Made by a program: the position numbers and the translations under genes. From Asticcacaulis tiandongensis (GTDB lineage Bacteria > Pseudomonadota > Alphaproteobacteria > Caulobacterales > Caulobacteraceae): DNA of 64,000 nucleotides. Under the pieces are notes generated by a model. The model searched no databases and was not told the origin of the DNA. It saw only the letters and a program-made list of their open reading frames with translations. The stretch lies in contig NZ_SSBC01000019.1 of NCBI RefSeq assembly GCF_006475605.1, positions 1 to 64,000 on the forward strand, written 5' to 3'. Positions 2,248-21,215 of this stretch are shown in pieces; the first letter of the stretch is position 1, and each line of letters starts with the position of its first letter.

Positions 2248-3453
2248 TTACTCGCCCACCTCAAACAAGGACGTCGCGTCATAAAGAAACGCCTCGACCG
2301 CCTCACCGGCCTCATAGGTTTTCGCCGCTTCAGGTAAGGCGATATAGCCATGCCCCTGCGCCAGCGATTTCAGCTTGAACGATTCCTGCCCATCAAGCAC
2401 CTCGGCCCTCAGACCGTCAGGCGTCAGTTCAAAACCTGCCTTCAGAAACTGGTACAGTCCATTGCCCTTAACGACCGGTGCTTTCAGCTTCGCCACAAGT
2501 GGCCGCTCACGTCCAAGGCCCGATAGCTGACGCACCAGGGCCTGCACAAAAAACCGCCAGCCCACCGCTGCCGCCACCGGATTACCGGGCAAACCAAAAT
2601 AGAAATGCCCCTGCGGCAAACGCGCAAACAGGATCGGCTTACCCGGCCGCAGATTAATCCGGTGAAAGACGATCTCCGCCCCCAGTGCCTTCAGGGCTTC
2701 CGGCACAAAGTCCTTTTCGCCTTTGGATACCGCACCGGTCGTTATAATGATCGACGGCGTTTTAATCGCCTGAATGGCTGCCACCAAATTTTGCGCCTCA
2801 TCACGGATAATCCCGCCGTCATGCGCCACAAGCCCCGCTCGTCTGGCGGCCGCCAGCAGGTAAGGCCCGTTGGAATTATGGATCATGGCCTCAGACAGAT
2901 TACCGCCATCCGACAATTCATTCCCCGTGCTGAAGACATGAACATCCGGCAGGGTTATCACCGAAACCTCCCGCACCCCCAGCGCCGCCAGAAGCGCCAG
3001 CTTTTCCGGCGTTACAGATTCTCCGGCATTCAGAACGGCCTCGCCCTGAGCCACATCTTCACCGGCTTCGCGGATATTGGCCCCCGCCGCAGGAATATGT
3101 GCAAACACCACACTCTGACCGCTGACTTCGGCCTGCTCGATGGGGATCACGGCATCATAGGCTGATGACACCAAAGCGCCCGTCATGATGCGCACCACCG
3201 GTGCCTGATCGGTCGGCGTCACATCACCCGCCGCCACGGTCGCCCCAATCTCACTGGCCTGACCGGCGGCAACCTCAGTGCGCTTGATCGCAAACCCGTC
3301 CATGGCCGAATTACGAAACGGCGGCAGGTTTAGCGACGCGACCACATCTTCCGCCAGAATCTGACCCAGAGCGTCACTCAACGATACGGTGCGTGCGGCG
3401 GCCCTGACCGCATTCGCCGCAATCAGATCTATGGCTTCGTTATAACTGATCAT
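2248..3453 (-). CDS. moeA: Molybdopterin molybdenumtransferase MoeA
   Basis: MoeA inserts molybdate into adenylylated molybdopterin. The 401-residue protein has normal length and domain order: an N-terminal region with LPPFRNSAMDGFA, the central MPT-binding domain with STGNEL and TTGAVSKGEKD, the LPGNPVAA motif, and a C-terminal beta domain. Its ATG overlaps the end of the upstream moaC-mogA gene by 4 nt, and moaD begins right after its stop, so all are translated from one message. Confidence 0.95.
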   Translation of the reverse strand: MISYNEAIDLIAANAVRAAARTVSLSDALGQILAEDVVASLNLPPFRNSAMDGFAIKRTEVAAGQASEIGATVAAGDVTPTDQAPVVRIMTGALVSSAYDAVIPIEQAEVSGQSVVFAHIPAAGANIREAGEDVAQGEAVLNAGESVTPEKLALLAALGVREVSVITLPDVHVFSTGNELSDGGNLSEAMIHNSNGPYLLAAARRAGLVAHDGGIIRDEAQNLVAAIQAIKTPSIIITTGAVSKGEKDFVPEALKALGAEIVFHRINLRPGKPILFARLPQGHFYFGLPGNPVAAAVGWRFFVQALVRQLSGLGRERPLVAKLKAPVVKGNGLYQFLKAGFELTPDGLRAEVLDGQESFKLKSLAQGHGYIALPEAAKTYEAGEAVEAFLYDATSLFEVGE

Positions 3454-4439
3454 TTGCCCTCTCCGTTCATGATGCGGATCAGGTGCGGAATCAGCTCAGG
3501 CAAAAGCGCCGACAGGCCTTCCTTCACGGCACGCGGACTACCCGGCAAGGTGACGATCAGGCTCTCCCCGATCTGACCACCGACCGCACGGCTGCTCCAG
3601 GACAGAGGCGTATATTTTGCGCCGTCGCTGCGCAGCAATTCGCCAATACCCTCAATTGACCGGTCAAACAAAGGCGTCAGAGTATCGGGCGTCACATCAC
3701 GCGGCGCCACACCCGTCCCGCCGGTACAGACAATCAGATGCGGCTTACGACTATGGGCCAGATCAGTAACCGTGGCGCTTAAGGTCGCCGGTTCATCGGG
3801 GATCAGCCGATAATCGGTGACCTCCGCCCCATGTTCGCTCAGTATGTCTTTAATGGCTTCACCGGAGGCATCTTCATAGACACCGGCATGGGCACGATCA
3901 CTTAAGGTGACCACCGCCACACGTCGCCCGCTCAGAACCTTTGGGGCCGGCGGATCAATCAGATTGCGCACCTCATCAGACACCCCATCGGGATGCAGCC
4001 ATACCCCGCTCTTGCCGCCGCGTTTGGCCAAAAGCCTGATATCGGAAATCAACAAGGCCGGCTCAACCATCTTGGTCAGATCCCAAAGCGTCAGAAGCGC
4101 CGCATTAACCCCGGCCAGCGCCTCCATCTCGACACCGGTTTTCGCATGAGCCGCCGCAATGCAGGTAACCCTGACGCTATGGGTTTCGGGTTCCGGCTCC
4201 GGGATGATCTCGACATGATCCAGCCCCAGCGGATGACAGAAGATAATGGTGTCGTGGGCGCGCTTGGCGCCCTGAATGCCCGCAATCTGACAGGCCGACA
4301 GGACATCACCCTTGGGCAGGGTTTTGTTGATGATGCGCTCAAAGGCTTCCGGTGAGGTGCTGAAGCGGCCTTCGGCAATGGCGACCCGGTGCGTGACAGG
4401 CTTCGCGCCCACGTCAATCATGCGATAGGGCAGGCTCAT
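3450..4439 (-). CDS. moaC: Bifunctional MoaC-MogA/MoaB fusion (cyclic pyranopterin synthase plus molybdopterin adenylyltransferase)
   Basis: Residues 1 to about 153 are MoaC, which with MoaA makes cyclic pyranopterin monophosphate: YRMIDVGAKPVTHRVA, the catalytic lysine in K-G-D-V, C-H-P-L, and D-L-T-K are present. After a short linker, residues 170-329 are a MogA/MoaB domain with VVTLSDRA, TGGTG and LPGSPRAVKEG, which adenylylates molybdopterin before MoeA acts. Two non-consecutive steps of the pathway are thus in one chain; fusions of this kind are known in bacteria. It lies 2 nt after moaA and overlaps moeA. Confidence 0.93.
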   Translation of the reverse strand: MSLPYRMIDVGAKPVTHRVAIAEGRFSTSPEAFERIINKTLPKGDVLSACQIAGIQGAKRAHDTIIFCHPLGLDHVEIIPEPEPETHSVRVTCIAAAHAKTGVEMEALAGVNAALLTLWDLTKMVEPALLISDIRLLAKRGGKSGVWLHPDGVSDEVRNLIDPPAPKVLSGRRVAVVTLSDRAHAGVYEDASGEAIKDILSEHGAEVTDYRLIPDEPATLSATVTDLAHSRKPHLIVCTGGTGVAPRDVTPDTLTPLFDRSIEGIGELLRSDGAKYTPLSWSSRAVGGQIGESLIVTLPGSPRAVKEGLSALLPELIPHLIRIMNGEGK

Positions 4440-5616: not shown

Positions 5617-7260
5617 TCAGACATCCGGATTAGGGCATTCCGGTGTCTCATGGCGCTCACATCGCGCCGCCGTCTCCATATCGCAGTAGTTACACAGCGC
5701 AAAAACATCCGGCAGATGGATCTCATTACGATCTATATCGATGCCCTGCTCCTTAAGGGTTTGCAGAGCGCGCGAAAAGGTTTCCGGCTTCATCCCGAGA
5801 TATCCGGCAATCAGCGACTTGTCATAGGGCAATTTGAAATTGAGCGTCCGCTCCCCGTGATCGAGCATCTCATTGAGCAGGAACCGCCCCACACGCTGGG
5901 TGACGGATTTCAGCGTCAACTGCTCAAACTGGGTCATCATGGCCTGAGACCGGTCAGCGATACAGGACATCATATTCATGGCCAGCACCTGATCGCCCTG
6001 AAGCTTTTCGCGCATGATCGAGGCCGGTATAGATAGCAGCTGGGTGTTTTCAATGGCCTGCGCATTGACCGGCAACAGCGCATTGCTGAATATGGCCGTC
6101 TCCAGCATGGCATCGCCGGACTTCACGATCTGAAGAATCGATTCCTGCCCGTCAACATTGCCCTTATAGAGCTTCACCCAGCCACTGAGCACAATATAGA
6201 ACCGCAAGGCCTGCTCGCCCTGCATGAAGATCATCGCCCCCTTGTCATAGTGATGAACACGGGAAAACTTCATGATGTCCTTAAGCAACTCAGGTCTGAT
6301 ACCGGCAAACAGCGGCAGCAGACTTAACCGCTCAAAATGTGCATCGCCGGTGCCTGATATCACTTCGGGGGCGCGCCCCGCCTGCGGTTTGGCTTCGGGC
6401 TCCGGTTTTGCCTCAGGCGGCGCGGTCACCGCATCGCGCATCATATCCTTGAGCAGCACCTGACCAATCTCATAGAGACGGTCCATCTTTTCGGTAAAAA
6501 GTTCAAACCACTGGTTGGCATCAAAGGCCTCAAGCAAACGTGCGCCCGTACTCTGCTCAAGCGCCTGATTGAGCGTCCGCACTTTCTGAAACGCCGAATG
6601 TTCCTCATAAAGCGCCTTGACCATGACCCGCGTATCTTCGTCACACAGGCTGAGGAACATCCGCTCATAGGCCTGCTGCTTGGCGATGATATAATCCAAT
6701 AAGCCCCGCGCCTCGCTCAGGGCGCCGGCATTTTGCAGCAGATAACCGCCCAAGGCCCGCTGACGCCCGACATGTTCTTTCCACTGCATAAAGCTCATGA
6801 ATGCCGAGACACGCGCCGGATTATTCGCCGGATCAAAGACCGCTAACTCCTGCACAATATCGATGGCCGGCGCAATAATCTCACGCGTATAGAAGACATG
6901 CGCCTCCGCCGGATCAATCAGGCGCGAAACGATATATTTGCGTCTGGCCCCCAGATAATGCACCGCGCTTAACAAAGGCTCGATATTGGCGCTCTGCTTT
7001 TTGGGCAGCGCCCCCAAAGCCACCGCCGACCGGTCAGTGATATAGAACTGATTTTCCAGAAACTCGCTGAAATCGCTGCCCTGACTGCGCAGGAACAGGG
7101 CCGCCGCACCACGCTCTTTCTGGGCGTCGTGGATGAAGCGACACAGGTCGTTTAAGGCAGTCTCAGTCATGGAACGGTGCAGGTCTGTTTGTTCTTTTAT
7201 AAGCATAGTAATACCACTGTTCCGGGCATGGCCAAGACACGTTTGCCCTTCCATGAACAT
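5617..7260 (-). CDS. Nitrate/nitrite-sensing (NIT) domain fused to a Crp/Fnr-family transcription regulator
   Basis: This 547-residue protein joins two modules. Residues about 35-270 are helical and carry NIT-domain hallmarks (Q-K-E-R-G-A-A at 47-53 and V-G-R-Q-R-A-L-G-G at 164-172); NIT domains are predicted nitrate/nitrite receptors. A Pro/Glu/Lys-rich linker (278-305) leads to a Crp-type effector domain (308-425), dimer helix and winged helix. The recognition helix reads K-P-E-T-F-S-R (491-497), the E-x-x-S-R pattern that in Fnr contacts TTGAT, rather than the E-x-x-G-R of Crp. There are no N-terminal Fnr cluster cysteines; instead four cysteines follow the winged helix (C523, C526, C534, C542). 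The gene sits between the moa operon and ubiTUV with matching boxes on both sides. Start is uncertain: 7260 or an internal ATG at 7206. The role as nitrate-responsive activator is inferred. Confidence 0.85.
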   Translation of the reverse strand: MFMEGQTCLGHARNSGITMLIKEQTDLHRSMTETALNDLCRFIHDAQKERGAAALFLRSQGSDFSEFLENQFYITDRSAVALGALPKKQSANIEPLLSAVHYLGARRKYIVSRLIDPAEAHVFYTREIIAPAIDIVQELAVFDPANNPARVSAFMSFMQWKEHVGRQRALGGYLLQNAGALSEARGLLDYIIAKQQAYERMFLSLCDEDTRVMVKALYEEHSAFQKVRTLNQALEQSTGARLLEAFDANQWFELFTEKMDRLYEIGQVLLKDMMRDAVTAPPEAKPEPEAKPQAGRAPEVISGTGDAHFERLSLLPLFAGIRPELLKDIMKFSRVHHYDKGAMIFMQGEQALRFYIVLSGWVKLYKGNVDGQESILQIVKSGDAMLETAIFSNALLPVNAQAIENTQLLSIPASIMREKLQGDQVLAMNMMSCIADRSQAMMTQFEQLTLKSVTQRVGRFLLNEMLDHGERTLNFKLPYDKSLIAGYLGMKPETFSRALQTLKEQGIDIDRNEIHLPDVFALCNYCDMETAARCERHETPECPNPDV

Positions 7261-7332: not shown

Positions 7333-7346
7333 TTGATCTGGATCAA
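7333..7346. promoter_or_regulatory. Fnr/Anr-type box between the NIT-Crp regulator and ubiT
   Basis: TTGATCTGGATCAA is a perfect palindrome located between two divergent genes, about 73 nt from the regulator start and about 63 nt before the ubiT ATG. One site could therefore serve autoregulation and activation of ubiTUV. Confidence 0.8.
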
Positions 7347-7408
7347 TGGGTCGCCGCCCCCCGCCGCCTATTTCGTTGCGGCAGTATGACGAAACCCGTG
7401 ACCCACAA

Positions 7409-8077
7409 ATGACCCAGATACCCGAGCCCTCCAGAGAGCCCTCCAGACCAGAGAGCGGCAAACTGCTGCTGATGGGCCTTGGCCTGTCACTGCTCCCCAG
7501 ACCTCTGTTGCAAGCCCTGGCCGATCACCTGTGCGGACTGATCAATCATCGCCATCCGGCCTTGCGTTCACGCCTCGCTCAGGCCGAAGGGCGGCGCTTT
7601 CATTTCTGCCTCGAAGATCTGGGTTTTGATGCGGTCATGCACATCCACCAAAACCGCCTGTCGCTGAAACTGACCGAAAAGGGACAGATCACCGTCGCAG
7701 ATGTACAGCTGAAGGGGCAGAGCCAGCGCCTTCTGGAACTGATGCAGGGCGAAAGCGACGGCGACGCCCTGTTCTTCGCCCGCGACCTTGCGGTGTCCGG
7801 CGATACCGAAGCCCTCGTCAGTCTGCGCAATGCCCTCGAAAGTGAAACCATCGACCTGAAAGCCCTGGCGCTCGACAGTCTGGGGCATCTCGGCCAACCG
7901 GCGCGCGCGGCATTCAGCCGTACCGAAGCCCTGATCACCCGCAAATCTACTGACATCGACCGCCTGTGGCAGGCCCTGACCCGCCCCCTCGATCAGCGCC
8001 TGAGCCGTCAGGCCCGCCAGATCGCTACCCTTGAAACCCGCCTTGCCCAGCTTGAGAAGATCAGGGTCAAACCATGA
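7409..8077 (+). CDS. ubiT: Anaerobic ubiquinone biosynthesis accessory factor UbiT (SCP2 domain)
   Basis: UbiT is an SCP2/sterol-carrier-like lipid-binding protein that works with UbiU and UbiV in oxygen-independent ubiquinone synthesis. The protein (222 residues) has the SCP2-type core around residues 40-130 (R-F-H-F-C-L-E-D-L-G-F, then G-D-A-L-F-F-A-R-D-L). Its stop overlaps the ubiU start as ATGA. I chose the ATG at 7409; an earlier ATG at 7346 lies inside the Fnr box and would put regulatory DNA in the coding sequence. It is longer than E. coli UbiT, with a predicted coiled C-terminal tail. Assignment rests on the SCP2 core plus the U32 neighbours. Confidence 0.88.
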   Translation: MTQIPEPSREPSRPESGKLLLMGLGLSLLPRPLLQALADHLCGLINHRHPALRSRLAQAEGRRFHFCLEDLGFDAVMHIHQNRLSLKLTEKGQITVADVQLKGQSQRLLELMQGESDGDALFFARDLAVSGDTEALVSLRNALESETIDLKALALDSLGHLGQPARAAFSRTEALITRKSTDIDRLWQALTRPLDQRLSRQARQIATLETRLAQLEKIRVKP

Positions 8078-9066
8078 ATGCCGCACGCCTTGAAATCATC
8101 TGCCCCGCAGGCACACCCGCCGCCCTGACCACCGCCGTCGATGAAGGGGCCGATGCCGTCTATCTGGGTTTTCGCGACGCGACCAATGCCCGTAATTTTC
8201 CGGGACTGAACTTTTCCCGCGACGAGCTTGCGGCCGCCATTGCCTATGCCCGCCCGCGTGGCACCGAAATTTTCATCGCCATCAACACCTTTGCGCAGGC
8301 CGGTCACGAAGCCCTGTGGCGACAGGCGGTGGATGACGCCGTCCGCATCGGGGCCGACGCGCTCATTCTGGCTGACACAGGTCTTCTGGCCTATGCGCGT
8401 GACAAACACCCTGACGCCCGCCTGCATCTCTCGGTACAGGCCTCGGCCTCGACGGCCCAGAGCATCCGTTTTTACACCCGACGCTTCGGTGTGCGACGGG
8501 TGGTACTGCCGCGTGTACTGACGCTTAAGGAAATCAAGGCCCTCAACGACGACATAGAGGTGGAAACCGAGATCTTTGCCTTTGGCGGCATGTGCCCGAT
8601 GGCAGAGGGACGTTGTTCCTTGTCCTCCTATATTACCGGCAAATCGCCCAACCGCGATGGTGTCTGCTCGCCTGCCAGCCATGTCGCCTATCTGCCCGAA
8701 GACGACGACCTGACCACGCAACTTGGCGGCTTTACTATTAACCGCTTCGCCGCCGATGAGCGCGCCGGTTACCCCACCCTGTGCAAGGGCCGTTTCAGGG
8801 CGCAGGATCACGTCTCCTATATTTTTGAAGACCCCGTCAGCCTTAATGTGCTCGACCGTTTACCGGAAATCGTCGCCTCCGGCGTCACCGCCCTCAAGAT
8901 CGAGGGCCGTCAGCGCGGCAAGGCCTATGTCCGCGAAGTGGTGCGCAGCTTCCGTCAGGGCGTTGATGCCTTCTACGCCCAAACCCCTGCCCCCCCAAGC
9001 GACCTGTCCCGCCTCAGCGAAGGCCAGTCCGTCACCGGCGGCGCGTACGAAAGGCAATGGCGATGA
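8074..9066 (+). CDS. ubiU: Ubiquinone hydroxylase subunit UbiU (peptidase U32 family, [4Fe-4S])
   Basis: UbiU and UbiV form a heterodimer that hydroxylates the quinone ring without O2. The protein (330 residues) is a TIM-barrel U32 member with cysteines C174, C181, C198 and C237, spaced exactly as the four cluster ligands of E. coli UbiU. Genes ubiT, ubiU and ubiV overlap end to start. Placement beside nar genes fits ubiquinone supply for nitrate reductase during growth without oxygen, since the usual flavin hydroxylases need O2. Confidence 0.94.
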   Translation: MNAARLEIICPAGTPAALTTAVDEGADAVYLGFRDATNARNFPGLNFSRDELAAAIAYARPRGTEIFIAINTFAQAGHEALWRQAVDDAVRIGADALILADTGLLAYARDKHPDARLHLSVQASASTAQSIRFYTRRFGVRRVVLPRVLTLKEIKALNDDIEVETEIFAFGGMCPMAEGRCSLSSYITGKSPNRDGVCSPASHVAYLPEDDDLTTQLGGFTINRFAADERAGYPTLCKGRFRAQDHVSYIFEDPVSLNVLDRLPEIVASGVTALKIEGRQRGKAYVREVVRSFRQGVDAFYAQTPAPPSDLSRLSEGQSVTGGAYERQWR

Positions 9067-9950
9067 CACCCTCCCTGTCCTTAGGCCCCTTGCTTTATAA
9101 CTGGTCGCCGGAAAAGGCGCGGGACTTTTACCTGCGTATCGCCGACGAAAGCGACATAGAACGCGTGTTTTTAGGCGAAGTCGTCTGCTCCAAGCGCGAA
9201 CCCTTTCATGCCGCCTACTGGCCGGAGGTCATTGAGCGCCTTGAGGCCTCAGGCAAGCAGGTCATCCTGTCGACGCTGGCCCTGGTCGCCACCCCGCGTG
9301 AGATCAAAAGCCTGATGAGCCTTAAGTCTGAGGCCGATTATCTGATTGAAATCAACGACCTGACCCTGCTTGAGGACTGGGACAACCGGCCCTTCGCGCT
9401 TGGGCCCTATGTCAATGTCTATAACGAAGCCACCCTTAAGGTCTTTGAGGACATGGGGGCCACACGCGTCACCTTGCCGTTTGAACTGACGCGGGACACT
9501 CTGGCCATTCTGGGTAAGGCTGCCACCTCGGCCCTTGAGGTACAGGTCTATGGCCGCCTGCCTCTGGCCATTTCCGCCCGCTGCTACCACGCCCGCGCCT
9601 TTAAGCTGCATAAGGATGGCTGTCAGTTCGTCTGCGACCGCCACCCCGATGGCATGGCCGTCGATACATTGGACGGCCAGCCCTTTCTCACGGTCAATGG
9701 CACCCAGACCCAATCCATGACCTGCGCCAATCTCATTCAGGAACTCCCTGACCTGATGCAGATGGGCATAGGCGGTTTTCGCCTGTCGCCACAGGATGTC
9801 GATATGGTGGCGATTGCCCGCGCTTTCCGTCAGGTCATCACCGGCGATATCGACCCCGCCGAAGCCTTTTCCCGCATGGAAACCGGTGATTTCGCCTATG
9901 CCAACGGCTTCTTCCACGGTGTCGAAGGTCGGCATCTGAAGCGGGCCTGA
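9063..9950 (+). CDS. ubiV: Ubiquinone hydroxylase subunit UbiV (peptidase U32 family, [4Fe-4S])
   Basis: UbiV is the partner of UbiU. The 295-residue protein has the four expected cluster cysteines: C42, then C174, C187 and C191, with the same spacing as in E. coli. The ATG at 9063 overlaps the ubiU stop as ATGA and has AAGG 8 nt upstream; an alternative ATG six bases earlier is too close to that ribosome-binding site. It is the last gene of the ubiTUV unit. Confidence 0.94.
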   Translation: MTPSLSLGPLLYNWSPEKARDFYLRIADESDIERVFLGEVVCSKREPFHAAYWPEVIERLEASGKQVILSTLALVATPREIKSLMSLKSEADYLIEINDLTLLEDWDNRPFALGPYVNVYNEATLKVFEDMGATRVTLPFELTRDTLAILGKAATSALEVQVYGRLPLAISARCYHARAFKLHKDGCQFVCDRHPDGMAVDTLDGQPFLTVNGTQTQSMTCANLIQELPDLMQMGIGGFRLSPQDVDMVAIARAFRQVITGDIDPAEAFSRMETGDFAYANGFFHGVEGRHLKRA

Positions 9951-12829: not shown

Positions 12830-15800
12830 ATGAGCCATTTTATCGACAAACTCACCTTTTTCCGGCGTGAGCGCGAAGACTTTTCCAACGGCCACGGCCA
12901 GAAGACCGATCAGTCGCGTGAGTGGGAAAAAGGCTATCGCAGCCGCTGGCAGCACGACAAGGTCGTGCGCTCCACCCACGGCGTCAACTGCACCGGATCG
13001 TGCAGCTGGAAGATCTACGTCAAGAACGGTCTGGTGACCTGGGAAACCCAGCAAACCGATTATCCGCGCACCCGTCCGGACATGCCGAACCACGAGCCCA
13101 GAGGCTGCGCCCGCGGGGCCAGCTATTCGTGGTATCTCTACAGCGCCAACCGCCTGAAATATCCGCTGGTGCGTTCGCGCCTGCTCAAAAGCTGGCGCAA
13201 GGCCAAGGCCCTTCACGGTGATCCGGTCACCGCATGGGCCTCGATTGTCACCGATGACGCCAAGCGCAAGGATTACCAGAAGGTGCGCGGTTTGGGCGGT
13301 TTCGTGCGCTCAAGCTGGGATGAGGTCAATGAGATCATCGCCTCGGCCAATATCCACACCATCGAGGCCCACGGCCCTGACCGCATCATCGGCTTCTCGC
13401 CCATTCCGGCCATGTCGATGGTCTCCTATGCTTCCGGCGCGCGTTACCTGTCGCTGATCGGCGGCGTCTGCACCAGCTTCTATGACTGGTACTGCGACCT
13501 GCCGCCCGCCAGCCCCCAGACATGGGGTGAACAAACCGACGTGCCCGAAAGTGCCGACTGGTATAATTCAAGCTTTATTATCGCATGGGGCTCAAACGTT
13601 CCTCAGACCCGTACACCGGACGCCCACTTCTTCACCGAGGTGCGTTACAAGGGTACCAAGACGGTCGCCGTTACCCCTGACTATTCCGAAGTCGCCAAGC
13701 TGGCCGATATCTGGATGCACCCGAAACAGGGCACCGACGCAGCCATGGCGCTGGCTATGGGCCACGTCATCCTCAGCGAATGGCACCTGAAGGGCAAGAG
13801 CGACTATTTCGACGACTATTGCCGCAGCTTTACCGACATGCCCTTCCTTGTAAAACTTGAGGAAAAGAACGGCTACCTTCAGCCGGCAGGCATGGTGCGG
13901 GCGTCCGATTTCAAGGACGGCCTCGGTATGGAAAACAATGCCGACTGGAAGCCGGTACTGGTCTGCGGGCGTGAGGAAAAAGTCCGCGTCCCCAATGGCA
14001 CCATCGGTTCACGCTGGGGTCAGGACGGCAAGTGGAACCTTGAACCGCGTGACGAGAAAACCGGCGATGATATCTGGCCGCTTCTGTCGCTGATCGATCA
14101 TAGCCAGCGTGACGTCAAATCGGTTGCCTTCCCCTATTTCGGTCATCAGGCCCCTGAGACCTTCAACGCCACCGACCATGCCGAGGTGCTGGAACGCAAC
14201 ATCCCCGTCATTCCGCTCGAACTGAACGAGGGTAAGGTCTATGTCGCCAGCGTCTATGACCTGTTTGTCGCCAACTATGGCGTTGATCGCGGTCTGGGCG
14301 GGGCCAATGTCGCCACAAGCTTCGACGATGATGTCCCCTACACCCCCGCCTGGCAGGAAAAGATCACCGGCGTCAAGCGCGAGCATGTAATCAATGTCGC
14401 CCGTCAGTTCGCTGAAAACGCCCATAAGACTCATGGCCGGTCCATGGTCATTGTCGGAGCCGGTCTGAACCACTGGTATCACATGGACATGATCTACCGT
14501 GCCATCATCAATATGCTGGTGATGTGCGGCTGTATCGGTAAATCCGGCGGCGGCTGGAGCCACTATGTCGGTCAGGAAAAGCTGCGTCCGCAAACCGGCT
14601 GGGCACCGCTGGCCTTCGCCACCGACTGGAGCCGTCCGCCGCGTCAGCAAAACGGCACCTCTTTCTTCTATGCCCACACCGACCAGTACCGCTATGAGCG
14701 CGTGAAGATGGATGAAATCCTCTCGCCTCTGGCCGACACGGCCGAGTGGAACAATCTGTCGATGATCGACTGTAATGTGCGGGCCGAACGCATGGGCTGG
14801 CTGCCGTCTGCACCGCAGATGGAAACCAACCCGCTTGAGATCGGGCGCGCTGTGCAGGCGTCGGGTCAAAGCGCCGGTGATTATGTGGCTCAGGGCCTGA
14901 AGAACCGTGACCTGAAACTGTCGTGCCACGATCCGGACAACCCCGCCAACTGGCCCCGCAACATGTTCGTCTGGCGCTCGAATATTCTTGGTTCCAGCGG
15001 TAAGGGCCATGAATATTTCCTCAAGCATTTTCTGGGGACACAGAACGGCATTCAGGGCAAGGAACTGGGGGCCGAAGGCGAGCAACTGCCCTCCGAAGTC
15101 GTCTGGCACGACGAAGCGCCGGAAGGCAAACTTGACCTTCTGGTAACGCTCGATTTCCGCATGTCCACCACCTGCGTCTATTCCGATATCGTGTTGCCAA
15201 CCGCCACATGGTACGAAAAAGCCGACCTCAATACCTCGGACATGCACCCCTTCATCCACCCGCTCTCTGCGGCCGTCGATCCGGCATGGGAATCGCGCTC
15301 GGACTGGGACATCTATAAGGGTCTGGCCAAAAAATTCTCGGAACTGTGCGAAGGCCATCTGGGCATCGAGCAGGATGTGGTCTTAAACCCCATCAAGCAC
15401 GATACCGCCAATGAACTGGCGCAGGGCCTTGAGCCGCAGGACTGGTACAAGGGCGAATGCGAACCGATCCCCGGCAAGACCATGCCCACGGTCACACTGG
15501 TCGAACGTGACTATCCCAATATCTACAAAAAATTCACCTCGCTTGGGCCGTTACTGTCAAAGCTCGGCAATGGCGGCAAGGGCATTGGCTGGAACACCGA
15601 AGCTGAACTGAAAATCCTCGGGGACATGAACTACCGTGTCACCGAAGACGGCATCAGTCAGGGCCTGCCCAAGATCGACAGTGCCATTGACGCTGCCGAA
15701 GTCATCATGACCCTTGCGCCGGAAACCAATGGCCATGTGGCGGTAAAGGCATGGGCGGCGCTGTCCAAAACCACGGGCCGCGACCATACCCATCTGGCGG

Positions 15801-16606
15801 TTGCGCGTGAGGACGAACATATCCGTTACCGTGACATTCAGGCCCAGCCGCGCAAGATCATTTCCTCACCGACCTGGAGCGGTATTGAGTCCGAACACGT
15901 CAGCTATACGGCGGGTTACACCAACGTCCATGAACTGATCCCCTGGCGCACCCTGACCGGCCGTCAGCAGCTTTATCAGGATCACAAATGGATGCGGGCC
16001 TTTGGCGAATCCTTATGTGTCTATAAGCCGCCGATTGACCTTAAGACGACCAAACCGGTGATCGAGAAGCTCGGCAAGGGCCGCAAGCAGGTGGTGCTGA
16101 ACTTCATCACGCCGCACCAGAAGTGGGGCATCCACTCGACCTATTCGGACAACCTTCTGATGCTCACCCTGTCACGCGGCGGGCCTATCATCTGGATGTC
16201 GGAAATCGACGCGCAGAAAATCGGCGTCGTCGATAATGACTGGATCGAAGCCTACAACACCAATGGCGCCATCACGGCGCGTGCGGTGGTTTCCCAGCGC
16301 GTCCCCGAAGGCATGGTCATGATGTACCACGCTCAGGAAAAGATCATCAACGTACCGGGCTCCGAAATCACCGGCACACGCGGCGGCATCCACAATTCGG
16401 TCACCCGCATTGTGCCCAAGCCCACCCACATGATCGGCGGCTATGCGCAGCTGGCCTATGACTTCAACTATTACGGCACCGTAGGTTCCAACCGCGATGA
16501 GTTCGTCATCCTGCGCAAGATGAAAAAGGTCGAATGGATGAACGAGGAAAACTACCCCAAGGGCGAGATGCCGACACTTGAAACTCTGACAGAGAAAGGC
16601 GCCTGA
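12830..16606 (+). CDS. narG: Respiratory nitrate reductase alpha subunit NarG
   Basis: NarG is the cytosolic catalytic subunit that reduces nitrate to nitrite at a Mo-bisMGD centre. At 1258 residues it is full length. The N-terminal FS0 [4Fe-4S] motif is present with H50, C54, C58 and C93, and the region with the Mo-ligating aspartate (WYNSSFIIAWGSNVPQTRTP) is intact. The sequence is very close in style to E. coli NarG. An Arg-Arg pair at residues 12-13 is the usual vestigial Tat-like start. The ribosome-binding site is GAGGAATAAG. It leads narGHJI with 2 nt before narH. Confidence 0.98.
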   Translation: MSHFIDKLTFFRREREDFSNGHGQKTDQSREWEKGYRSRWQHDKVVRSTHGVNCTGSCSWKIYVKNGLVTWETQQTDYPRTRPDMPNHEPRGCARGASYSWYLYSANRLKYPLVRSRLLKSWRKAKALHGDPVTAWASIVTDDAKRKDYQKVRGLGGFVRSSWDEVNEIIASANIHTIEAHGPDRIIGFSPIPAMSMVSYASGARYLSLIGGVCTSFYDWYCDLPPASPQTWGEQTDVPESADWYNSSFIIAWGSNVPQTRTPDAHFFTEVRYKGTKTVAVTPDYSEVAKLADIWMHPKQGTDAAMALAMGHVILSEWHLKGKSDYFDDYCRSFTDMPFLVKLEEKNGYLQPAGMVRASDFKDGLGMENNADWKPVLVCGREEKVRVPNGTIGSRWGQDGKWNLEPRDEKTGDDIWPLLSLIDHSQRDVKSVAFPYFGHQAPETFNATDHAEVLERNIPVIPLELNEGKVYVASVYDLFVANYGVDRGLGGANVATSFDDDVPYTPAWQEKITGVKREHVINVARQFAENAHKTHGRSMVIVGAGLNHWYHMDMIYRAIINMLVMCGCIGKSGGGWSHYVGQEKLRPQTGWAPLAFATDWSRPPRQQNGTSFFYAHTDQYRYERVKMDEILSPLADTAEWNNLSMIDCNVRAERMGWLPSAPQMETNPLEIGRAVQASGQSAGDYVAQGLKNRDLKLSCHDPDNPANWPRNMFVWRSNILGSSGKGHEYFLKHFLGTQNGIQGKELGAEGEQLPSEVVWHDEAPEGKLDLLVTLDFRMSTTCVYSDIVLPTATWYEKADLNTSDMHPFIHPLSAAVDPAWESRSDWDIYKGLAKKFSELCEGHLGIEQDVVLNPIKHDTANELAQGLEPQDWYKGECEPIPGKTMPTVTLVERDYPNIYKKFTSLGPLLSKLGNGGKGIGWNTEAELKILGDMNYRVTEDGISQGLPKIDSAIDAAEVIMTLAPETNGHVAVKAWAALSKTTGRDHTHLAVAREDEHIRYRDIQAQPRKIISSPTWSGIESEHVSYTAGYTNVHELIPWRTLTGRQQLYQDHKWMRAFGESLCVYKPPIDLKTTKPVIEKLGKGRKQVVLNFITPHQKWGIHSTYSDNLLMLTLSRGGPIIWMSEIDAQKIGVVDNDWIEAYNTNGAITARAVVSQRVPEGMVMMYHAQEKIINVPGSEITGTRGGIHNSVTRIVPKPTHMIGGYAQLAYDFNYYGTVGSNRDEFVILRKMKKVEWMNEENYPKGEMPTLETLTEKGA

Positions 16607-16608
16607 TC

Positions 16609-18132
16609 ATGAAGGTACGCGCACAAATCGGCATGGTGCTTAATCTGGACAAGTGCATCGGCTGTCACACCTGTTCGGTCACCTGCAAGAACGTCTGGAC
16701 CTCGCGTCAGGGCGTCGAATATGCCTGGTTCAACAATGTCGAAACCAAACCCGGTGTCGGCTATCCCAATGACTGGGAAAATCAGGCTCGCTGGAAAGGC
16801 GGCTGGGCCCGCAAACCTTCGGGCAAGATCGAACCGAAGCAGGGCGGCAAATGGCGTACCCTCGCCAATATCTTCTCTAACCCCAATATGCCCTCGATCG
16901 ACGACTATTATGAACCCTTCACCTTCGACTACGAGCACCTGCATAAGTCGCCCGAGGCCAAGACCATGCCAACGGCCCAGCCGGTATCGGTCATCACTGG
17001 CAAGAAGATGAAGAAGGTGATCAGCGGCCCGAACTGGGAAGAAATTCTTGGTGGCGAGTTTGAAAAACGCTCAAAGGACAAGAACTTCGACCACGTGCAG
17101 AAGGACATTTACGGGCAGTTTGAAAACACCTTCATGATGTACCTGCCGCGTCTGTGCGAGCACTGCCTCAATCCGGCCTGCGTCGCCGCCTGTCCGTCAG
17201 GGGCCATCTATAAGCGCGAGGAAGACGGCATCGTACTGATCGATCAGGATAAATGCCGCGGCTGGCGCATGTGTGTCTCGGCCTGCCCCTACAAGAAGAT
17301 CTACTACAACTGGGAATCGGGCAAATCCGAGAAGTGTACCTTCTGCTATCCGCGCATCGAAGCCGGTGAGCCGACCGTCTGTTCGGAAACCTGCGTCGGG
17401 CGCATCCGCTATCTTGGCGTGCTTCTGTATGATGCCGACCGTATCGAAGAGGCCGCGGCCACCAAGGACGAAGAGAACCTCTATCAGGCCCAGCTTGATA
17501 TCTTCCTCGATCCCTTCGACCCCGAAGTCATCAAGGCCGCCAAGGCCGAAGGCATCCCCGACAGCTGGCTTGAGGCCGCGAAGATTTCGCCGGTCTACAA
17601 GATGGCTATCGACTGGAAGATCGCCTTCCCGCTGCACCCCGAATACCGCACCATGCCTATGGTCTGGTACGTGCCGCCCCTGTCACCCATTCAGAACGCG
17701 GCCACCTCAGGCGATGTCGGCATGAACGGCATTATCCCTGACGTGAAATCGCTGCGCATCCCGCTGAAATACCTCGCCAACCTCCTGACGGCGGGTGAGG
17801 AACGGCCGGTGCGTATCGCGCTGGAACGGATGCTGGCCATGCGCGCCTTTATGCGCGGACGCCATGTGGACGGCGTGGAACTGGAAGACCTCCTGACCCG
17901 CACCGGCCTCAACCGCGCCAAGGTCGAAGAAATGTACCGCTATCTGGCCATCGCCAATTACGAAGACCGCTTCGTTATTCCGACCTCACATAAGGAATAT
18001 GCCGAAGAAGCCTTCGACATGCGCTCCGATTGCGGGTTCTCGTTCGGCAATGGCTGCTCCGGCGGTGACAATAAGGTCAACCTGTTCGCTTCACCTAAGC
18101 GTAAAAACCTGTTCGGAGGCACCCATGCTTAA
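16609..18132 (+). CDS. narH: Respiratory nitrate reductase beta subunit NarH
   Basis: NarH (507 residues) carries electrons from NarI haems to NarG through four Fe-S clusters. The cysteine groups are visible: CIGCHTCSVTC near the N-terminus, then CEHCLNPACVAACP, a C-R-G-W-R-M-C group in which Trp replaces one cysteine (the [3Fe-4S] site), and CTFCYPR with later cysteines. Its end overlaps narJ by 8 nt. Confidence 0.98.
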   Translation: MKVRAQIGMVLNLDKCIGCHTCSVTCKNVWTSRQGVEYAWFNNVETKPGVGYPNDWENQARWKGGWARKPSGKIEPKQGGKWRTLANIFSNPNMPSIDDYYEPFTFDYEHLHKSPEAKTMPTAQPVSVITGKKMKKVISGPNWEEILGGEFEKRSKDKNFDHVQKDIYGQFENTFMMYLPRLCEHCLNPACVAACPSGAIYKREEDGIVLIDQDKCRGWRMCVSACPYKKIYYNWESGKSEKCTFCYPRIEAGEPTVCSETCVGRIRYLGVLLYDADRIEEAAATKDEENLYQAQLDIFLDPFDPEVIKAAKAEGIPDSWLEAAKISPVYKMAIDWKIAFPLHPEYRTMPMVWYVPPLSPIQNAATSGDVGMNGIIPDVKSLRIPLKYLANLLTAGEERPVRIALERMLAMRAFMRGRHVDGVELEDLLTRTGLNRAKVEEMYRYLAIANYEDRFVIPTSHKEYAEEAFDMRSDCGFSFGNGCSGGDNKVNLFASPKRKNLFGGTHA

Positions 18133-18787
18133 GACCTGTAAGGCGCTGGGCATTTTCCTGCGCTACCCTGATACAGACTGGGCAGAACATGCCATTGATC
18201 TGTGCGATCTCATCGAAGCGGAGGGCCGGATCAAACCGGCCCAGTTGCGCGGTCTCAAACATCTGGCGCAGACCGTGACCACTGACCTGTTTGACGCACA
18301 GGAAACCTATGTCGCGACCTTTGACCGCGTACGGTCACTGTCGCTGCATCTGTTTGAGCATGTGCATGGCGAATCGCGTGATCGCGGGCAGGCGATGATC
18401 GACCTGATCGAGCTTTATGAGGCCAAGGGCCTGATGCCGCCGACCAATGAACTGCCGGACTACCTGCCAATGTTCCTTGAATATCTGTCCCACACGCAGG
18501 AAGGCGAGGCCCACGAAAGCCTGAAAGACATCGCCCATATCCTTGAAGCGATCTCCCGCCGCCTCAAGGATCGCCAAAGCCCTTACGGCGCGGTGTTCGA
18601 TGCGCTTCTGACGCTGGCGGGCCAACGGGCAGTTGCCGGTAATCACACCCTGATCGGTGGCAAACCGGAAGAGGCTTCCTCAAAGGAAATGGATGCCGAT
18701 TTCACGGACATAGACAGCCTGTGGGAAGACCCGATGGTTGATTTTCTGGGGGCGAAAGCCCCGCAATCCGGCGCAGCGTGCGGATAA
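18125..18787 (+). CDS. narJ: Nitrate reductase assembly chaperone NarJ
   Basis: NarJ is a dedicated cytosolic chaperone of the TorD/NarJ class that helps insert the molybdenum cofactor into NarG. The 220-residue protein has the family motif NELPDYLPMFLEYLS near residues 107-121 and a helical composition. The ATG at 18125 falls inside the end of narH, a usual arrangement; the frame is open further upstream but only within narH. NarI follows 12 nt downstream. Confidence 0.94.
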   Translation: MLKTCKALGIFLRYPDTDWAEHAIDLCDLIEAEGRIKPAQLRGLKHLAQTVTTDLFDAQETYVATFDRVRSLSLHLFEHVHGESRDRGQAMIDLIELYEAKGLMPPTNELPDYLPMFLEYLSHTQEGEAHESLKDIAHILEAISRRLKDRQSPYGAVFDALLTLAGQRAVAGNHTLIGGKPEEASSKEMDADFTDIDSLWEDPMVDFLGAKAPQSGAACG

Positions 18788-18799
18788 GGGAGGTCCGTT

Positions 18800-19492
18800 A
18801 TGATGGATCATTACTATACATTCTTCTTCGGGGTTTACCCCTATATCTGCCTCAGCGTCTTAGCCATCGGCACCCTGATCCGCTATGATCGGGAACCCTA
18901 TACCTGGAAGGCCTCCTCCTCGCTCCTGCTGGCCGACAAGGGCCTGCGCATCGGCAATGTCATGTTTCACATCGGTGTCCTGTTTATCTTTGGCGGACAT
19001 CTGGTGGGCCTGCTTACCCCGCACTGGGTCTATGCGCCCTTCATCACCGCCGAACAGAAACAGCTGGTGGCCATTACGGCGGGTGGCATTGCCGGTATCA
19101 TCGGCTTTATCGGCCTGACCCTGCTGGTGTTCCGTCGCCTGCTGGTCGCCCGCATCCGTCAGACCAGTTCTTTCAGTGATATCGCCATCCTCCTGATTCT
19201 ATGGGTGCAGATCACACTTGGGCTTCTGACCATCCCCTTCTCGCTCGGTCACCATGACGCGACCCTGATGCTTAACCTGTGTGACTGGGCGCAGGGCATA
19301 TTCACCTTCCGTCCGGGGGCGTCTGATTTCATCGTCGGTGTCGAATGGCCATTCCAGCTGCATATCATCCTGGGCCTGACCATCTTCCTGCTGTTCCCCT
19401 TCACCCGCCTTGTGCACATGCTGAGTGCGCCGGTGCAGTACGTTTTCCGCCCCTATCAGATCGTGCGCAGCCGCATGGCCCGCAGGTCATAA
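18800..19492 (+). CDS. narI: Respiratory nitrate reductase gamma subunit NarI (di-haem cytochrome b)
   Basis: NarI anchors the complex and oxidises quinol. The 230 residues form about five membrane helices, with haem-ligand histidines in MFHIGVLFIFGGHL and in the C-terminal helices (L-H-I-I-L-G and R-L-V-H-M-L). Length and ending (SAPVQYVFRPYQIVRSR) are standard. A good ribosome-binding site GGGAGG precedes its start. Confidence 0.97.
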   Translation: MMDHYYTFFFGVYPYICLSVLAIGTLIRYDREPYTWKASSSLLLADKGLRIGNVMFHIGVLFIFGGHLVGLLTPHWVYAPFITAEQKQLVAITAGGIAGIIGFIGLTLLVFRRLLVARIRQTSSFSDIAILLILWVQITLGLLTIPFSLGHHDATLMLNLCDWAQGIFTFRPGASDFIVGVEWPFQLHIILGLTIFLLFPFTRLVHMLSAPVQYVFRPYQIVRSRMARRS

Positions 19493-19504
19493 GGAGTTAT
19501 ATCC

Positions 19505-19975
19505 ATGCCCATCTATGTCAACGAAGTGGAAATCACCGACGAACAGGTGCTGCGCGAAATGCAGCACCACCCGGCCCCCGATCAGCCCTCGGCCCTGCAA
19601 ATGGCCGCCGAAGCCCTGACGGTGCGTGAACTGCTTTTGCAGGCCTATGTCCGCGAAGGGCTGGGGACACGCGAAGACGATCCGACGGCTGAACCCGTAG
19701 CCGATGATGCCCGTATTGATGCACTTCTCGAAAAGGTCATCACCGTTCCGGTGGCCGAAGAAGAGCATCTGCGGCGCTATTATGAAAACAACCGCCAGCA
19801 ATTTGTCTGGGACGGCGAAGCCCTCAGCTTTGAGGACGCCCGCCAGACCATTACCGATTACCTGACCGGCACAAACTGGCTTCAGGCGGTTTCGCAATAC
19901 ATCAAGATTCTGGCCGGTCGGGCAAAGCTGGTCGGCATAGAGCTTGAGTGCGCTGATTCGCCACTTGTACAATAA
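19505..19975 (+). CDS. Rotamase-less remnant of the nar-linked parvulin (PpiC/NifM-type) protein
   Basis: Many nar operons end with a NifM/PpiC-type peptidyl-prolyl isomerase of roughly 270-290 residues. This 156-residue protein keeps that family's N-terminal helical part (residues 1-100, through R-R-Y-Y-E-N-N-R-Q-Q-F) and its C-terminal part (about 107-156: ITDYL...W..AVSQYIKILAGRA, ending SPLVQ). The parvulin catalytic domain that should lie between them is absent. The frame is intact and the join is clean, with RBS AAGGAG before the ATG. It may keep a chaperone-like role for the nitrate reductase, or be decaying. The comparison with full-length relatives is from memory, not from a search. 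Confidence 0.75.
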   Translation: MPIYVNEVEITDEQVLREMQHHPAPDQPSALQMAAEALTVRELLLQAYVREGLGTREDDPTAEPVADDARIDALLEKVITVPVAEEEHLRRYYENNRQQFVWDGEALSFEDARQTITDYLTGTNWLQAVSQYIKILAGRAKLVGIELECADSPLVQ

Positions 19976-19992: not shown

Positions 19993-20026
19993 ATAGTCTG
20001 GCCTTCGATACCGGAGGCCAGACTAT
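19993..20026 (+). terminator. 12-bp perfect hairpin after the nar operon
   Basis: Arms 19993-20004 (ATAGTCTGGCCT) and 20015-20026 pair perfectly around a 10-nt loop, between the parvulin-like gene and nnrS. No T-run follows, so it is either a Rho-assisted end, an mRNA-stability hairpin, or an operator. Confidence 0.5.
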
Positions 20027-20057: not shown

Positions 20058-21215
20058 ATGCCCCGTTTTGCCCTGTTCAACTATGGCTTTCGTCCCTTCT
20101 TCCTGCTGTCGGGGCTCTTTGCGCTCGTGGCGCTGGGCTATTTCGTCTGTCTGACGGCAGGGCTTGACCTGCCGTTTTTCAGCCGCCTTGACCCTATCGC
20201 CTGGCATCAGCATGAAATGACCTTCGGTTATGGCATGGCGGTCGTCACCGGCTTCCTGTTTACCGCTGTCGCCAACTGGACAGGGCAGAAAACCCCCAGA
20301 GGCTGGTGGCTGGGGCTGATTGTTGCCGCATGGATCATGGGACGCATCGCCGTCTTTGCCTCCGACCTTCTGCCCCTGTGGCTGGCGGTTGTCATGGACG
20401 CGGGATTCAGCCTTCTGGTCATTGCCGGCATTGCCCCTGCCCTGATCAAGGGTGGCAATAGGCGCAATTTCTTCTTTATTGTTCTTCTACTGTTGCTCGG
20501 CGGTGCCAATCTTCTGATGTGGACGGGCTATCGCGTAATCGGCTTCACCGCCGGTCTCAATATCCTGTTGCTGATGATCGTGATCATCGGCGGACGCGTC
20601 ATGCCGATGTTCACCGAACGCCCGCTGGGTCTGATTCTGAAACGCGATCCGCGCATTGACCGTATTACCCTGATCACCACGGTTCTGGCGCTGACTGGCG
20701 AAGTCATCTCCCTGTTCTACCCCCCCCTTGGCGGGCCAATCCTTGGGATATTCTTCCTGCTCGCGGCCTTAAGCAATCTCTGGCGCCTCAGCCAGTGGCA
20801 GTCCCTGAAAACCCTCAAACTGCCGCTCGTCTGGGTGCTGCATGCCGCCTATGCATGGATCATCATAGGCTTCGCCCTCAAAGGCTTCATTCATCTCGGC
20901 ATGGATATCTGGTCAGGGGCGGCAACCCACGCTTTGACGGTCGGCGGCTTAGGCGTCATGACACTGGGCTTCATGGCCCGCGTCGCGCTTGGCCATACCG
21001 GCCGACCACTGGTGGTCGGCCTGCCTATGACCATTGCCTTCATTGCCCTCAATCTGGCCGCCATACTGCGCGCCCTGCTGATTCTTGTTTTCCCCGATCA
21101 GTTCCTGCGTCTGGCCGAAGCCGCCGGTGCGCTATGGCTGGTGGCGTTTATCCTGTTCCTATGGGTCTATGTGCCCATCCTTATCGCGCCCCGCGCCGAC
21201 GGACGTCCTGATTAA
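20058..21215 (+). CDS. nnrS: NnrS family membrane haem protein
   Basis: NnrS proteins are multi-helix haem and copper membrane proteins linked to denitrification, where they relieve nitrosative stress. The 385-residue sequence starts with F-N-Y-G-F-R-P-F-F-L and has the W-H-Q-H-E-M-T-F-G-Y-G motif near residue 54, both hallmarks, with about twelve hydrophobic segments. It follows the nar genes, separated by a hairpin, and suits the ric gene at the other end of the island: both defend against NO by-products of nitrate respiration. Confidence 0.93.
   Translation: MPRFALFNYGFRPFFLLSGLFALVALGYFVCLTAGLDLPFFSRLDPIAWHQHEMTFGYGMAVVTGFLFTAVANWTGQKTPRGWWLGLIVAAWIMGRIAVFASDLLPLWLAVVMDAGFSLLVIAGIAPALIKGGNRRNFFFIVLLLLLGGANLLMWTGYRVIGFTAGLNILLLMIVIIGGRVMPMFTERPLGLILKRDPRIDRITLITTVLALTGEVISLFYPPLGGPILGIFFLLAALSNLWRLSQWQSLKTLKLPLVWVLHAAYAWIIIGFALKGFIHLGMDIWSGAATHALTVGGLGVMTLGFMARVALGHTGRPLVVGLPMTIAFIALNLAAILRALLILVFPDQFLRLAEAAGALWLVAFILFLWVYVPILIAPRADGRPD

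Follow-up and report, generated by a model that had tools for sequence, protein, structure and literature searches.

The stretch analysed here, referred to as the window, comprises 64,000 nucleotides at the start of contig NZ_SSBC01000019.1 of Asticcacaulis tiandongensis and carries a nar island. The island runs from a hemerythrin-type RIC-like protein through mobA, moaE, moaD, and moeA (these four named by inspection), a moaC-mog fusion, and moaA, to a NIT-CRP regulator, SCP2/U32 genes, and two narK genes, followed by narG, narH, narJ, narI, a short parvulin gene, and nnrS. The fusion gene (3450–4439, reverse strand) encodes a single 329-aa protein in which MoaC is joined to a MoCF/Mog-type domain. 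The regulator (5617–7260, reverse strand) is a 547-aa protein that combines a nitrate/nitrite-sensing NIT domain (PF08376, 2e-29) with a cNMP-binding and HTH domain of CRP type, and is possibly a one-component nitrate sensor-activator of the island. The SCP2-like gene and the two U32-peptidase genes lie in series at 7346–9950 on the forward strand, adjoining nar, and presumably resemble ubiT-ubiU-ubiV of oxygen-independent ubiquinone synthesis.

The nitrate reductase genes all lie on the forward strand. narG (12830–16606) was assigned from its translation and comparison with relatives, and narH (16609–18132) from its translation, with a position that agrees with narH of relatives; narJ, the assembly chaperone (18122–18787, start approximate), and narI, the gamma subunit (18800–19492), were assigned from family matches. 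Directly downstream of narI and on the same strand lies a gene of 156 codons (19505–19975), the short nar-linked parvulin without a rotamase domain. Its ATG at 19505 follows the end of narI at 19492 with a spacing of 12 nt, and a Shine-Dalgarno-like AAGGAG (19490–19495, forward strand, identified from the sequence) overlaps the narI stop codon; the open reading frame with a good ribosome-binding site that had been proposed from the letters is thus real. Between the short gene and nnrS (20058–21215, forward strand; PF05940, 6.7e-100) there is a strong, perfect 15-bp hairpin with no T-run (19993–20025, forward strand; z −5.5 versus shuffles), which possibly marks the end of the nar transcription unit.

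The short protein corresponds to residues ~1–100 of full-length nar-operon parvulins joined to residues ~204–258. According to the alignments, its N-terminal chaperone lobe (residues 1–100; 19505–19804) carries the family signature EMQHHPA at residues 18–24, and the C-terminal part (residues 108–156; 19826–19972) consists, in the alignment and an AlphaFold2 model, of a long helix (109–139) and a C-terminal tail. The two are connected by a junction at about residues 101–107 (VWDGEAL; 19805–19825), where ~102 aa of parvulin domain are missing in frame by alignment (the full-length protein L038 has 258 aa, the short one 156). In a multiple alignment with full-length relatives, the sequences match along their whole length apart from a single block, the parvulin domain, whose limits run from just past a conserved 'RF' to just ahead of 'GxxLPFexV' at the start of the C-terminal helix. 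The same arrangement is seen in genome G066, where one 284-aa ORF is matched by the query in two pieces (1–100 and 103–156) with ~107 aa between them. The sequence-only reading, that the N- and C-terminal flanks of a PpiC-type protein are joined with the rotamase domain cleanly absent and the frame kept, is therefore borne out by the alignment.

The flank similarity far exceeds chance expectation. In phmmer searches, 92 of 93 full-length proteins matched the short protein at E<1e-3 (Z=1e6), with a best value of 1.9e-30, and shuffled and reversed controls of this search gave no match at E<10. The window protein thus shares with the nar-operon PpiC/parvulin family the homologous flanks and the EMQxHPA motif as well as its position after narI, and lacks the rotamase domain with the catalytic His/Cys/His. 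A scan of 77 family members gave PF00639 matches for 57, equal to the number of full-length forms; no rotamase match was obtained for the window ORF in the Pfam scan, and the protein is therefore regarded as a derived relative of the family and not as a PPIase. Weak Pfam/NCBIfam matches of the window protein to SgrA_ig-like (0.02) and ArrA (0.07) were taken as chance. H107, C151, and H196 (L038 numbering), which we take to be the parvulin catalytic positions, were invariant in all 57 full-length proteins examined; full-length proteins therefore carry the residue set of an active isomerase.

AlphaFold2 predicted a compact fold for the short protein from a 77-sequence alignment (mean pLDDT 92.5, pTM 0.83). 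In the model, short strands and helices make up the N lobe, and a tight turn at the former parvulin-domain site leads into a 31-residue C-terminal helix, whereas in the full-length model the parvulin domain is inserted between the N lobe and that helix. The top VIA-align matches were Cj1289 (Z 11.3), LIC12922 (10.3), and the SurA core (~10), with an overlap of ~125–140 residues, nearly the whole model, although helical models can reach Z 10–11 by common arrangement. Foldseek against the PDB likewise placed SurA cores first, with probability 1.0 and weak E-values (best 0.02), and the closest relatives of known structure in a PDB profile search were PEB4, HP0175, and SurA. The kinship with the parvulin family indicated by the sequence comparisons is independent of these structural Z values. 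The predicted structure thus shows the N lobe and C-terminal helix of a SurA-type chaperone core, but the N-terminus (MPIYVNEVEITDEQ) has by inspection no hydrophobic leader of the kind expected for periplasmic export, and the protein was not classed as SurA for this reason.

The short form is widespread and not confined to a single strain. We used 20 distinct intact short forms, each with narI directly upstream. They include a second species of the window's genus (G017, 60% identity) and other families of its order; among other alphaproteobacterial families, the form occurs in f146, f46, and f183 as well as in Kordiimonadaceae and Emcibacteraceae MAGs, and among Gammaproteobacteria in two MAGs, one of Lysobacterales and one of Xanthomonadales. 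Among 60 genomes of the window's order that gave a strong match, about 12 carry it (approximately one-fifth), a count that may be biased upward because short forms were used to build the profile; in samples of the wider class and phylum, the share was below one-tenth. Four other species of the window's genus have the full-length protein and a NarI of a different clade, so the window's nar operon is probably a separate acquisition. Nar parvulins occur on large plasmids too, and a Microbulbifer MAG carries two divergent full-length copies within 5 kb (L053, 1118–1960 and 4872–5774, forward strand). No description of a rotamase-less nar parvulin was found in the open-access literature.

The short gene is under purifying selection. 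Nei-Gojobori omega was 0.07–0.22 for short-form pairs with usable dS; full-length pairs gave 0.03–0.17 over their flanks, and NarI gave 0.01–0.16. For the window/G017 pair, synonymous sites were saturated (pS 0.80) at a dN of 0.31, a further indication of constraint. Per-column conservation was correlated between the short forms and the full-length flanks (r 0.74); E18, Q20, H22, A34, and L38 did not vary among the 20 short forms and were invariant or nearly so in the full-length forms. Because omega is close to that of the full-length flanks and the conserved columns are kept, the short gene does not appear to be decaying.

These values bear directly on the view that a decaying remnant, en route to loss, is being tolerated because the nar parvulin can be dispensed with. 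Such a view would fit the finding that 52.3% of nar operons in denitrifying Proteobacteria have ppiC and about half do not (PMC4464133), and the nearly neutral effect of the P. stutzeri parvulin gene in one fitness assay of unstressed denitrifying growth (−0.3, versus −1.8 to −2.4 for narGHI; PMC5554334). It would also fit a more eroded, 110-aa version in a Competibacteraceae contig (L054, 1966–2295, forward strand), which lacks the rotamase domain and parts of both flanks and may be a decaying copy. However, omega is well below 1, old clades at 60–66% identity keep frame, length, and conserved columns, and none of the 20 short-form sequences contains a stop codon or frameshift; we consider a remnant quite improbable.

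The domain was probably lost at least twice independently. In a flank-only tree with the junction columns removed, the short forms require three changes, of which the starred branches force at least two. One group (g3) consists of eight short forms in family f3 placed among full-length forms of the same genera. A single origin for all short forms was rejected on this tree (p-AU 0.031; a post hoc test on a quick tree), and the breakpoints are of two types, with g3 also lacking a ~7-residue linker that g1 and g2 keep; two origins are deduced from this rejection and from the difference in breakpoints. Groups g1 and g2 (the window's group) could form one clade in both the flank and NarI trees. In the NarI tree, the short forms fall into three supported clades (98*, 97*, and 99*), and one clade for all of them was not rejected (p-AU 0.237). 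The short-form clades coincide with NarI clades, that is, the short forms are co-inherited with their nar lineages.

The trees are unrooted, and counts of changes therefore cannot separate gain from loss, which leaves room for the reverse history, with the short form ancestral and the parvulin domain inserted later in the full-length form. We regard this as very unlikely, given that SurA, PEB4, HP0175, and PrsA also have the parvulin domain between an N lobe and a C-terminal part, that full-length proteins have a much wider distribution, and that the eight-member f3 short clade lies among full-length forms.

The recurrent loss, the selection, and the stable SurA-core-like predicted fold together argue for a function of the flanks themselves: in the nar short forms, they are worth keeping without the isomerase. 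Of the earlier proposal that the flanks have their own function in nitrate reductase maturation, the first part is thus supported, and the second is suggested by operon linkage and NarI co-inheritance. For any nar parvulin, short or full-length, no biochemical data or study of its role were found in the open-access literature. Insertions in Psest_3482, the nar-cluster parvulin gene of P. stutzeri RCH2, cost fitness under chromate, and the authors of that study grouped the gene with nar and Moco genes in chromate fitness (PMC5554334); in unstressed growth the effect is only −0.3.

In our preferred interpretation, which we hold to be probable, the short protein is a cytoplasmic, isomerase-free, SurA-core-like holdase or docking factor for nitrate reductase assembly. 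The inserted parvulin domain would have been cut out in frame from a nar-operon PpiC protein, leaving the two-part SurA-type core. Working beside NarJ and independently of ATP, the product would then be a dedicated holdase or docking factor: the conserved N-lobe surface around EMQHHPA would bind NarG/NarH in nascent or apo form, or else the interface of NarGH with NarI, and the protein would no longer catalyse prolyl isomerisation. NarGHI of these lineages may fold without a catalyst, or another cytoplasmic PPIase may help.

A loss of the substrate proline alongside the domain would be a simple explanation of how the isomerase became unnecessary. In a scan of NarG, NarH, NarJ, and NarI with partial NarG coverage and one g3 NarG, no proline conserved in operons with the full-length gene had disappeared from all three short groups: Met replaces NarH P125 in g1 only, and at a few NarG positions g1 and/or g2 have a residue other than proline, whereas the single g3 NarG has Pro. 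Because no NarGHJI proline is lost in step in all three groups, this simple explanation is not supported.

Another explanation is that the short protein is a targeting half that brings an isomerase supplied in trans, such as trigger factor or a cytoplasmic FKBP or cyclophilin. Separable halves are seen in NifM, whose N part binds NifH and whose PPIase part does the chemistry (PMC12691677). However, the genome yielded only two further parvulin-domain genes, and the products of both are apparently exported. One, a SurA-like ORF, has a hydrophobic leader and lies immediately before a pdxA-like ORF; the other, a lipoprotein-like ORF, is flanked by secA-like and argJ-like ORFs (all names by inspection). 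We judge a partner in trans to be unlikely.

Beyond the holdase or docking factor itself, a broader generalisation can be offered tentatively, at slightly less than even confidence: the short forms may constitute an isomerase-free class of dedicated nitrate reductase chaperones with at least two origins by precise parvulin excision, in which the widespread nar parvulin depends essentially on its core, with the isomerase required by the NarGHI of some lineages only. As natural core-only variants, they separate two possible functions of nar parvulins, chaperone and isomerase, and they are ready reagents for asking whether nitrate reductase assembly needs prolyl isomerisation, as NifM-independent NifH was for the corresponding question in nitrogenase.

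Among known systems, the closest is the full-length nar PpiC, exemplified by Psest_3482 and, we presume, by PA3871 of P. aeruginosa. It shares the place after narI, the N lobe with the EMQ-HPA motif, and the C-terminal helix, and differs in its parvulin domain of ~102–107 aa, as seen in 57 aligned proteins other than Psest_3482. NarJ and other REMP chaperones are also dedicated helpers encoded in the nar operon, but they belong to a different family, and narJ is separately present in the window. The nearest functional analogue is NifM, the nitrogenase Fe-protein maturase, likewise a PpiC-type helper of one metalloenzyme with a client-binding N part; the window protein gave no match to NCBIfam TIGR02933 (NifM), which was matched by 57 of the 77 members, again the number of full-length forms. 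The N-terminal region of NifM binds its client NifH, but most of the activity comes from the C-terminal PPIase domain, and function is not restored by the N part on its own (PMC12691677), a dependence that sets NifM apart from the short nar protein.

The SurA-like chaperones (Cj1289, PEB4, PPIase-free alphaproteobacterial SurA, and the engineered SurA core) resemble the short protein in the predicted N lobe and C-terminal helix and in the absence of a PPIase. SurA differs in being periplasmic with outer-membrane protein clients, whereas the nar short protein has no visible signal peptide, shares only ~11–12% identity with the SurA core, and carries a nar-specific motif. The chaperone function of SurA is reported to survive removal of both parvulin domains (Behrens 2001, as cited in PMC2635482). 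Natural loss also has a precedent, since SurA proteins of Alphaproteobacteria contain at most one PPIase domain and may contain none (PMC2635482). PPIase-free parvulin chaperones are thus already known from SurA; judged against the open-access literature, what is new is that this occurs in nar, that it has recurred, and that the short forms are inherited together with nar lineages.
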